The position numbers and the translations under genes were made by a program. Under the pieces are notes generated by a model. That model was not told the DNA's origin. It saw only the letters and a list, made by a program, of their open reading frames with translations, and searched no databases. This document shows positions 89-20,678 of a stretch of 58,284 nucleotides of DNA, one piece after another. Location of the stretch: contig MFPL01000011.1 in NCBI GenBank assembly GCA_001784155.1, positions 1-58,284 of the forward strand, written 5' to 3'. Numbering within the stretch: position 1 is the first letter of the stretch; each line of letters starts with the position of its first letter. Origin of the DNA: Candidatus Levybacteria bacterium RIFCSPLOWO2_12_FULL_41_12 (lineage in GTDB: Bacteria; Patescibacteriota; Microgenomatia; Levybacterales; UBA12049).

Positions 89-161
89 GGTGGATGACGG
101 GGATCGAACCCGCGGCCGCCTGGACCACAACCAGGTGCTCTACCACTGAGCTACATCCACC
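89..161 (-). tRNA. tRNA-His (GTG)
   Basis: Minus strand GTGGATGTAGCTCAGTGGTAGAGCACCTGGTTGTGGTCCAGGCGGCCGCGGGTTCGATCCCCGTCATCCAC; loop contains GTG; G-1 opposite C73. Confidence 0.95.
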
Positions 162-418
162 ATGTTTGCATAAATCTCGTCTCTAACTTCTCTTCCTGAC
201 CCACTTTTAAAGTATTTTTCTAAAGTCCTTGCTTCTAACCTACTATTAACCACTTCTACATGTATCATTTCAAACGGTCCTCTATTTAATGTGGACTTAG
301 TCGAAATATTACCCTTATCATGTTGAGCAAGCCTTCGATTTATATTATCAGTAAATCCCGTATAAAACTTACCGTCCTTTATGCTTCTTAAGATGTAAAC
401 GCAATATTCGGTTTTCAA
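140..418 (-). CDS. Small GIY-YIG nuclease (UPF0213/YhbQ-like); 3' end runs into the tRNA-His gene
   Basis: YCVYILRSIKDGKFYTGFTDNINRRLAQHDKG motif; TTG start; last codons and stop lie in the tRNA 5' half. Confidence 0.85.
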   Translation of the reverse strand: MKTEYCVYILRSIKDGKFYTGFTDNINRRLAQHDKGNISTKSTLNRGPFEMIHVEVVNSRLEARTLEKYFKSGSGREVRDEIYANMVDVAQW

Positions 419-467
419 TGCTCTACACTGACCTGCCTGCCGGCAGGCAGGGCTACATCCACCATGC
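419..467 (-). pseudogene. Partial tRNA-His 5' half duplicate interrupted by palindrome CCTGCCTGCCGGCAGGCAGG
   Basis: tgctctac-actga[cctgcctgccggcaggcagg]gctacatccaccatg versus intact tgctctaccactgagctacatccaccatg at 137-165. Confidence 0.85.
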
Positions 468-4961: not shown

Positions 4962-5225
4962 CTATTTCAGTTTGGAATAATTATCAAGAATCAATCTCCT
5001 GAATCTATAGCCAATTCCAGACTTTAGAAATAGTTCTCTTTTACCTGCGCAAAGCTCACAATAAAAACTTTCAAAGTATATCAGCTCCCAAGGCTTATTA
5101 CTCTTTGTGTATGTCGATAAGCCACTATTATGTTCTTTTAACCTACTCTTTACATCCTTAATGGTAAGCCCAACGTATGTCTTCTTTGGACTTTTTAAAC
5201 TTTTCAGAATGTAAACGATATACAT
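4962..5225 (-). CDS. Small GIY-YIG nuclease located between tRNA-Leu and tRNA-Pro
   Basis: YIVYILKSLKSPKKTYVGLTIKDVKSRLKEHNSG. Confidence 0.85.
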   Translation of the reverse strand: MYIVYILKSLKSPKKTYVGLTIKDVKSRLKEHNSGLSTYTKSNKPWELIYFESFYCELCAGKRELFLKSGIGYRFRRLILDNYSKLK

Positions 5226-5250
5226 CGAAAATCAAAGTACTGCTTTGCAG

Positions 5251-10844: not shown

Positions 10845-10940
10845 CTGCCGGTCTTGGATTCCCGTTTACCCCGCATACGGGGCTAGTCGGGACAAGTCGA
10901 ACTCCCGCTTTCTTCGGGACAAGCAAAATAGATTATCCTA
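10845..10940 (-). pseudogene. Candidate 3' half of a split, inactive tRNA-Gln with palindromes
   Basis: Minus strand ends AATCCAAGACCGGCAG; ACCGGCA is a perfect complement of TGCCGGT at 11348-11354. Confidence 0.6.
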
Positions 10941-10947
10941 GAAAAGG

Positions 10948-11018
10948 CTGGGAGACTAGGATTCGAACCTAGATAGTAAGATCCAAAGTCTTACGTCCTA
11001 CCATTAGACGATCTCCCA
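10948..11018 (-). tRNA. tRNA-Gln (TTG)
   Basis: TGGGAGATCGTCTAATGGTAGGACGTAAGACTTTGGATCTTACTATCTAGGTTCGAATCCTAGTCTCCCAG. Confidence 0.94.
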
Positions 11019-11260
11019 GCTCCTTCTAGGAGCTCTTTAAATTTATACCCTCCTTTATACAATTTTAATTCTTTTTCCCTGACCCTTGCCTCTAAATAAT
11101 TATTAAATTTTTCAAATTTGACTAAAATAAACGGTATTCTACTTTTGGTTGAAACCACCTTACCGCTGTTGTGTTTAGTCAGTCTTTGTCTTAAATTACT
11201 TGTTATTCCTATATAATACTTGCCATCCTTAAGACTTTTGAGAATATAAACATAAACCAT
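10991..11260 (-). CDS. Small GIY-YIG nuclease whose 3' end reads into tRNA-Gln
   Basis: VYVYILKSLKDGKYYIGITSNLRQRLTKHNSG; C-terminus GRSSNGRT* is encoded by the tRNA 5' half. Confidence 0.85.
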   Translation of the reverse strand: MVYVYILKSLKDGKYYIGITSNLRQRLTKHNSGKVVSTKSRIPFILVKFEKFNNYLEARVREKELKLYKGGYKFKELLEGAGRSSNGRT

Positions 11261-11261
11261 T

Positions 11262-11354
11262 TTTCAAAGTCAGTCCCGTTTACCCCGCATACGGGGCTGG
11301 CGGGACAAGTTGTCCTATTTACTCCGTCTTGCGGAGCCATTAGACGAACCGGCA
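11262..11354 (-). pseudogene. 5' half of a split, inactive tRNA-Gln with two palindromes
   Basis: Minus: TGCCGGTTCGTCTAATGG[CTCCGCAAGACGGAG]TAAATAGGACAACTT[GTCCCGCCAGCCCCGTATGCGGGGTAAACGGGAC]TGACTTTGAA. Confidence 0.75.
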
Positions 11355-20239: not shown

Positions 20240-20311
20240 GGACTCGTAGCTCAGCGGTAGAGCGCTTCGTTGACATCGAAGAGGCCAGAGGTTCGACACC
20301 TCTCGGGTCCA
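20240..20311 (+). tRNA. tRNA-Val (GAC)
   Basis: GGACTCGTAGCTCAGCGGTAGAGCGCTTCGTTGACATCGAAGAGGCCAGAGGTTCGACACCTCTCGGGTCCA. Confidence 0.95.
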
Positions 20312-20314
20312 CAA

Positions 20315-20575
20315 ATGGCATTTGTTTATATACTTCAATCTCTAACCAACTCCCGATATTACATTGGATCAACGAACAATCTTGATAGAAGAATTAATGA
20401 ACACAATCAGGGAAAATCAGGCTATACAAGATTCACTAGGCCATTTAAGTTAGCGTTTGCAAAAGAATTTTCTACCTCAAGGGAAGCAAGGCAAATTGAA
20501 TATAAACTTAAAAAGTTGAAGAGCAGAAAAATTGTAGAGAGAATTGTTTCTAGCGGAGAGATTCGAATTGGTTAG
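20315..20575 (+). CDS. Small GIY-YIG nuclease starting 3 nt after tRNA-Val
   Basis: AFVYILQSLTNSRYYIGSTNNLDRRINEHNQG; the open frame also extends upstream through the tRNA. Confidence 0.87.
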   Translation: MAFVYILQSLTNSRYYIGSTNNLDRRINEHNQGKSGYTRFTRPFKLAFAKEFSTSREARQIEYKLKKLKSRKIVERIVSSGEIRIG

Positions 20576-20632
20576 AGCGGTCCGATGTTCATCGGACAGG
20601 TCACCCCGATGTACATCGGGATCGGGTCCACA
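20563..20632 (+). pseudogene. tRNA remnant with two palindromes and the tRNA-Val 3' end
   Basis: TTGGTTAGAGCG-GTCCGATGTTCATCGGAC-AGGTCA-CCCGATGTACATCGGG-ATCGGGTCCACA; CGGGTCCACA repeats 20304-20313. Confidence 0.7.
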
Positions 20633-20678
20633 GCTAAAAGCAATTGACACAAGACTTTTTTCCCCATACACTTAATCT

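Follow-up and report, generated by a model that had tools for sequence, protein, structure and literature searches.

The window analysed here, i.e. the whole stretch of 58,284 nucleotides from Candidatus Levybacteria, carries on its minus strand, from position 11354 to position 10845, two halves of a tRNA-Gln gene that flank a GIY-YIG gene together with a second tRNA-Gln gene, which is intact and different (Table 1). The outer tRNA-Gln starts with T1 (complement of 11354) and ends with the discriminator G73 (complement of 10845), and its acceptor strands, TGCCGGT and ACCGGCA, form 7 pairs out of 7. The preliminary description, made from the letters alone, had claimed a tRNA-Gln split by a unit that carries a GIY-YIG gene and a second tRNA-Gln; this held, and the coordinates are exact. 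The inner gene is the sole intact tRNA-Gln(TTG) found in the genome and differs from the outer one at about 25% of positions.

Table 1. Features of the broken tRNA-Gln locus, of the other tRNA-linked GIY-YIG loci of the window and of one recurrent class of inserts.
Feature	Position	Strand	Remark
5' part of the outer (old) tRNA-Gln, with acceptor TGCCGGT and the D arm's first half	11337..11354	-	Groups with intact tRNA-Gln of relatives
D-loop palindromic insert, CTCCGCAAGACGGAG followed by TAAA	11318..11336	-	Sequence; comparable D-loop inserts in outer tRNA-Gln of G026 and G049
Outer tRNA-Gln TAGGACAA, 3' D stem onward	11310..11317	-	Sequence
Palindromic insert CTTGTCCCG..CCCCGTATGCGGGG..CGGGA, ahead of anticodon stem	11274..11309	-	Sequence
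Outer tRNA-Gln CTGACTTTGA: 5' side of anticodon stem and loop as far as the break	11264..11273	-	Sequence
GIY-YIG endonuclease-family ORF	10991..11260	-	Starts 3 nt past the break; frame extends into inner tRNA
Inner intact tRNA-Gln (TTG), TGGGAGA/TCTCCCA	10948..11018	-	65.8 bits to RF00005
Outer tRNA-Gln, 3' part TATTTTG: variable loop and 5' T stem	10924..10930	-	Preceded by degraded 3' anticodon stem
T-stem palindromic insert CTTGTCCCGAAGAAAGCGGGA	10903..10923	-	Sequence
Outer tRNA-Gln GTTCGA of T arm	10897..10902	-	Sequence
T-loop palindromic insert	10860..10896	-	Close to palindrome-bearing site in G033 and G010
Outer tRNA-Gln, 3' end: ATCCAAG, acceptor ACCGGCA and discriminator G	10845..10859	-	Sequence
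tRNA-His 5' half with 20-nt palindrome in D stem, directly before GIY-YIG gene	416..463	-	Second case in window
GIY-YIG gene between broken tRNA-His half and intact tRNA-His (160-88)	143..418	-
GIY-YIG gene immediately following intact tRNA-Val (20240-20312)	20315..20575	+
GIY-YIG gene immediately following intact tRNA-Leu (5333-5250)	4965..5231	-
TCYCAGCASTATC..TGCGGGATCCCG..tRNA..CTGGGA at tRNA-Cys/Thr	L221, L230, L247, L249, L250; own genome C3:12820-12530 and C10:10930-10640; G051 C2:22813		Several genera

Besides the cassette, four palindromes interrupt the outer tRNA-Gln, in the D loop, ahead of the anticodon stem, in the T stem and in the T loop. Once they are removed, the 3' part of the outer copy reads TATTTTGGTTCGAATCCAAGACCGGCAG; therefore TTCGA is a genuine T loop that is followed by a palindrome, which corrects the earlier caution that TTCGACT might belong to a palindromic repeat rather than to a T loop. 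In the outer copy, the anticodon stem has a degraded 3' side. Joining the two halves, the check proposed with the initial claim, failed for the window itself: ARAGORN calls no tRNA in the joined sequence because this 3' anticodon stem has decayed. Two of the palindromes share the core CCCCGTATGCGGGG, of which the 853 kb genome has only 2 copies, both inside this tRNA-Gln. A genome-wide dispersed family was considered as the source of the window palindromes and is unsupported, the long palindrome having only these 2 copies; the many copies that characterize dispersed palindromic repeats such as REP or the RPE of Rickettsia are not found for it.

The ORF matches PF01541 (54.3 bits, E=1.8e-14) and its product shows the VYVYIL, YYIG, R and E motifs, i.e. 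the catalytic domain expected from a GIY-YIG homing endonuclease element. Halves of the target flanking the gene, another expected feature of such elements, are present in the window and in G026; in G049, only the 5' half is present (the contig ends). G026 and G049, which belong to two other genera, carry the two best homologues of the protein within the family (60% identity). Each homologue is encoded within a broken tRNA-Gln and just ahead of an intact one, and each of the outer copies bears a D-loop palindrome ending with TAAA.

The linkage between GIY-YIG genes and tRNA genes is not restricted to tRNA-Gln. In the window, it is also observed for tRNA-His, tRNA-Val and tRNA-Leu. Past the GIY-YIG gene associated with tRNA-Val, a displaced tRNA 3' fragment extends to about position 20632 and ends with ATCGGGTCCACA; no displaced fragment was seen at the tRNA-Leu locus. 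The order of the Val locus (intact tRNA, GIY-YIG gene, 3' fragment) is the reverse of that of the Gln and His loci and, within 20240-20633, the T arm of the fragment is a perfect-looking palindrome (CCCCGATGTACATCGGG). Among the 16 GIY-YIG ORFs of the genome, 11 lie less than 150 nt from a tRNA gene, all on its strand, for an expectation of about 0.3 by area according to our own estimate. Likewise, at the loci of relatives, the GIY-YIG genes located at most about 160 nt from a tRNA all lie on the strand of this tRNA. The association of a GIY-YIG gene, a tRNA and a broken relic is also found for Ser, His and Asn in the same genome, for Asn in G051 and for Gly in G046.

A search with the outer 5' half gave matches in 43 of 100 relatives, and most of those inspected are free intact tRNA-Gln genes. 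In five related genera (G067, G033, G002, G025 and G010) and in the more distant G253, a complete tRNA-Gln sits in the anticodon loop of a second tRNA-Gln, within a hairpin CCTGCCCGCC..GGCGGG and with no nuclease gene inside. When the outer halves of such nuclease-free versions are joined, they are called as tRNA-Gln. Nested tRNA-Gln loci occur in records named Levybacteria, Levyibacteriota, Curtissbacteria and Parcubacteria. A tRNA-Gln(CTG) nested in a tRNA-Gln(CTG) was also found in a contig of Saccharibacteria (L093 6951-7180); this locus has an enclosing stem of 10 bp, and the T loop of the outer copy contains a second insert. In a contig of Daviesbacteria (L087 3700-4548), a tRNA-Gln 5' half is followed by a 229-residue ORF, with a weak helix-turn-helix match, and by an intact tRNA-Gln, which may possibly reflect the same trick performed by a different enzyme. 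The tRNA-Gln of two viral contigs (L094 10697-10812; L095) has a 45-nt insert in its anticodon loop without any intact inner tRNA. This insert resembles a mini-tRNA made of a CCA-ended acceptor and a T arm, and its removal gives an intact tRNA.

G033 is syntenic with the window, a tRNA-Leu, Leu, Val, Phe cluster adjoining the locus, and its tRNA-Gln is split too. The comparison with a syntenic relative, which had been expected to reveal an uninterrupted tRNA, therefore failed. Intact tRNA-Gln genes of the ancestral type are present in many relatives, and none was found at the exact syntenic position: the Leu/Leu/Val/Phe cluster is conserved and the place of the tRNA-Gln varies. Nor were two genomes found that share the same site and differ there only in having or lacking the cassette.

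The nesting of a tRNA within a broken copy of the same isotype recurs. According to a strict test, which requires an orphan T arm or tRNA 3' half directly downstream of an intact tRNA, it concerns 6 of the 44-45 tRNAs of the genome (one of these six loci, Ala-ggc, and the adjacent Ala-cgc have a single orphan half in common) and 7 of the 43 tRNAs of G051, and the same test on the opposite strand gave none in either genome (0/87 tRNAs). About 10 nested loci are found in all in the genome when Gln, Thr, His, Asn and Val loci missed by the strict test are added. More broadly, a pattern of two T loops too close to each other to belong to tandem tRNAs matches 48 of 73 genomes of the family, the reversed-pattern control being rare; this pattern also picks up loci that are not nested, as shown by the mixed content of the set that was inspected. 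Nesting is confirmed for Gln, Cys, Thr, Val, Arg, Pro, Ala and Asn, among others, and the inner and outer isotypes are identical wherever both can be read.

Joining of the outer halves, which had failed for the window, mostly succeeded at homologous loci of relatives: 19 of 24 nested loci of several isotypes are called as tRNAs, and 17 of these carry the isotype and anticodon of the inner copy. When halves of different isotypes were joined, only 10 out of 428 combinations were called, and 45 out of 124 when halves of the same isotype were taken from different loci. The acceptor strands pair at 7/7 with their own partner in 23 of 24 loci and in 4 of 428 cross-isotype combinations, which excludes chance. 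Some of the 24 loci were found through acceptor pairing; the 8 Gln loci of the Levybacteria/Curtissbacteria type were not, and 55 of their 56 acceptor positions are paired.

The comparison of alleles shows that a replacement has occurred. The outer tRNA-Gln copies share 91-100% identity with free-standing intact tRNA-Gln genes of relatives; for example, that of the window is 94% identical to the intact free-standing tRNA-Gln of G032, and that of G026 is identical to the intact gene of G016 across unmasked positions. The inner copies share 90-100% identity with the inner copies of other genera and 75-85% with their own outer copy in 7 of 8 loci, the exception being the Curtissbacteria locus (92%). 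The inner copies of the TGGGAGA type were seen in nested position only, with up to 94-99% identity from one genus to another. Trees are weak since the compared sequences have only 71 nt, but the gaps in identity are large. Comparative data thus favour an outer allele that is the resident one and an inner allele that belongs to a separate lineage. Replacement even looks serial, since the outer copy of G033 is 93% like the inner copies of G002 and G010. The earlier claim that an incoming nuclease-linked tRNA has replaced a resident tRNA is therefore supported, whereas the cutting by the nuclease and its mobility are only inferred.

No ribozyme core of group I introns was detected in the window at the gathering threshold or, by a sensitive search, in one nuclease-free insert. 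The enzymes expected for archaeal-type tRNA introns or split tRNAs, i.e. the splicing endonuclease together with RtcB, are not both present: RtcB (PF01139) is absent from this genome and found in 1 of 12 genomes with nested tRNAs, and the archaeal splicing endonuclease (PF01974) in none of the 12. A genomic island integrated in a tRNA gene is not recognized either, as the sole ORF of note encodes the GIY-YIG protein, the insertion lies in the anticodon loop and there is no repeat of the 3' end.

The reading that we prefer (probability about 0.58) is that these loci are homing cassettes that break a tRNA gene and supply its replacement, a strategy that can be called cleave and rescue. In this reading, a compact cassette made of a different tRNA-Gln and of a GIY-YIG nuclease gene would have broken the resident tRNA-Gln at its anticodon loop. 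The nuclease, like the product of a homing endonuclease gene, would cut intact tRNA genes at the conserved anticodon loop or close to it; the cassette would then be copied in by repair, the flanking halves providing homology. Host survival would depend on the tRNA of the same isotype that the cassette brings and that the nuclease presumably leaves uncut. The inner tRNA would be the working gene and the outer halves relics that later gather palindromes. Loss of the nuclease would lead to nuclease-free nested tRNAs, and later cassettes could invade the new copy. The cleavage site, homing and the immunity of the inner copy are all inferred, whereas the anatomy of the loci with their broken resident gene, their recurrence, the agreement of isotypes, the replacement of alleles and the linkage of nuclease and tRNA genes are directly seen. 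The presence of a replacement for the broken gene, one mark of a cleave-and-rescue element, is observed: the inner copy is intact and of the same isotype, its function being judged only from its sequence. The death of the outer copy is likewise inferred and is likely, since no outer copy is needed to complete the tRNA set (once the initiator tRNA is read by eye), several outer copies have lost stems and nearly all nested genomes lack the known splicing and ligation enzymes.

Some observations fit poorly with this reading. Many nested tRNAs are devoid of any nuclease and lie within a structured hairpin with some covariation, which simple loss of the nuclease does not explain. Indeed, 89% of cells are paired in the nuclease-free inserts, versus 20-53% when the sequences are slid, and some changes are compensatory; only five sequences are available. 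A second class of inserts, TCYCAGCA..GCGGGATCCCG..tRNA..CTGGGA, is found at tRNA-Cys and tRNA-Thr in seven genomes of the family; it gave no Rfam family in a sensitive search of one nuclease-free insert, and its pattern matched no viral contig. Inserts also occur outside the anticodon loop: the Val(tac) of G051 was entered in the D stem, and the tRNA-Val of the window precedes its GIY-YIG gene. The outer acceptor stems are still paired (7/7 in 23 of 24 loci) even where other stems have decayed; this partly reflects detection bias and could possibly signal a residual function. Lastly, cleave and rescue leaves the palindromes of the outer halves unexplained. GC-rich palindromes are rare in the genome (31 under a strict definition). 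The separate motif CCTGCCYG is moderately dispersed and more frequent near tRNAs, with 12 copies observed versus 1.75 expected in G051 and 7 versus 2.0 here.

Another, clearly less probable explanation is that a palindromic or hairpin DNA element is the primary mobile unit and inserts into the hairpins of tRNA genes (D, anticodon and T arms). Copies enclosing a tRNA would survive hits on an essential tRNA, and the GIY-YIG gene would be a passenger or only one route of moving. In favour of this possibility, the inner tRNA of the Gln, Val and Arg loci lies within a hairpin of the same type, CCTGCCCG..GGCGGG, which is also found without any tRNA in D and T arms of outer copies, CCTGCCYG is enriched near tRNAs despite the rarity of GC-rich palindromes, and the joins are exact and without target duplication. 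However, no transposase-like gene was seen in the cassettes, and this hypothesis explains neither the location of 11 of the 16 GIY-YIG genes at tRNAs nor the GIY-YIG cassettes that lack the CCTGCCCG hairpin. Still less probable is an unknown type of tRNA intron, i.e. an insert removed from the RNA, the outer halves being rejoined so that outer and inner tRNAs both work. Joined outer halves do make good tRNAs with acceptors paired at 7/7, the inserts are mostly in the anticodon loop, which is the usual site of introns, the nuclease-free inserts have a paired stem, and removal of the mini-tRNA insert of the phage contigs yields an intact tRNA. Against it, each interrupted tRNA of this genome is backed by an intact copy of the same isotype and none is a sole copy; furthermore, several outer copies lack stems, RtcB and the archaeal splicing endonuclease are found in 1 and 0 of the 12 nested genomes, and no known intron family was revealed by the sensitive Rfam search of one insert. 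A bolder and no less doubtful version assumes an unknown bacterial tRNA splicing that removes the inserts, even the hairpins whose tip is a complete tRNA: RNase P and 3' processing would free the inner tRNA and the halves would be rejoined, one gene thus giving two tRNAs of the same isotype. Splicing stays alive as a rival because of the covariation of the stems, the second class of inserts, the paired outer acceptors and the phage mini-tRNA insert.

The remaining alternatives are weaker. Ordinary local duplication, in which a tRNA gene was doubled and one copy decayed with GIY-YIG genes and repeats accumulating between its pieces, would agree with the constant identity of isotypes and with the cases (Pro, Ser) that retain one half only. 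It is very improbable: the inner tRNA-Gln are far from their own outer copies and near the inner copies of other genera, the outer copies match residents, and the nesting is precise in about eight isotypes, in two families of the order and in more distant CPR lineages. An artefact, either misassembly or chance matches of short tRNA-like pieces, has to be considered since the genomes are metagenome-assembled. It can be practically ruled out, as the arrangement recurs in assemblies from different projects and the controls given above (0/87 tRNAs on the opposite strand, 10/428 cross-isotype joins) are negative or nearly so.

Cleave and rescue would share features with several systems and be identical to none. 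Like the homing endonuclease genes of group I introns found in the anticodon loops of bacterial tRNA genes, the cassette is an anticodon-loop insert with a gene for a homing-type nuclease; unlike them, no ribozyme was found in the window, and the host gene is restored by a complete second tRNA instead of splicing. T-even phages have free-standing homing endonuclease genes that perform intronless homing, such as those of the Seg GIY-YIG enzymes (a review is available, PMC2988022). As in these phages, a small stand-alone GIY-YIG gene adjoins its presumed target, but here the broken target contains both this gene and a replacement copy, the cutting being inferred. Homing endonuclease genes of fungal mitochondria (Allomyces atp6 type) bring a foreign gene end that displaces the resident one. 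Here too, a nuclease is linked to the replacement of the gene that it interrupts and a displaced resident fragment remains; by contrast, the host is a bacterium, the target is a tRNA rather than a protein gene, a whole gene is supplied and many isotypes are concerned per genome. The logic is also that of the synthetic Cleave and Rescue (ClvR) gene drives, which cut an essential gene and carry an uncut version of it (PMC7951863), except that ClvR is engineered with a programmed nuclease whereas the present system is natural and its cutting inferred. Insertion sequences with LAGLIDADG or GIY-YIG genes have been described in rRNA genes of CPR bacteria, those with GIY-YIG genes being in inserts that resemble no intron (PMC11270868). 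The bacterial radiation and the presence of GIY-YIG genes in non-intron-like inserts are the same, but the target is rRNA, no rescue copy is described and tRNAs are not mentioned in the main text. Split or intron-containing archaeal tRNAs (Nanoarchaeum type) have GC-rich complementary extensions at the anticodon loop. The tRNA halves described here have such extensions too; they differ in lying in cis around a full tRNA, in genomes where the archaeal splicing endonuclease was not found and RtcB is mostly absent.

The open-access literature searched yielded no account of a tRNA gene lying within another tRNA gene, an absence that is weak evidence since subscription papers and preprints were outside this search. 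According to the usual view, homing endonucleases avoid harm by residing in introns, in inteins or at intergenic sites. If true, cleave and rescue would be a third harm-avoiding solution in bacteria, in which an essential RNA gene is broken and a spare brought. Its recurrence at several isotypes per genome could therefore explain rapid turnover of tRNA alleles, the many small GIY-YIG genes and stray tRNA halves. Such a natural element would be directly testable, with an enzyme of 90 residues and a target of 71 nt.

Various minor observations were made on individual loci. The intron mode of ARAGORN, applied to the whole genome, missed the nested cases and gave spurious calls of long introns. 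The initiator tRNA, suspected of being an interrupted sole copy, was rejected as such: it is intact at C6:41138-41210, has an unusual T loop (GCGCAACTCC) and was missed by both ARAGORN and the Rfam tRNA search. In the tRNA-Asn locus of G051 (C7:98919-98991 and its flanks), a GIY-YIG gene and an intact copy are enclosed by two broken copies, whose D loops bear palindromes at an identical position. Finally, the tRNA-Cys locus of G011 (L248/L230, at a contig end) seems to be a three-deep nest, with a further CCAG..CTGGGACA tail past the outer copy, after which the contig ends.
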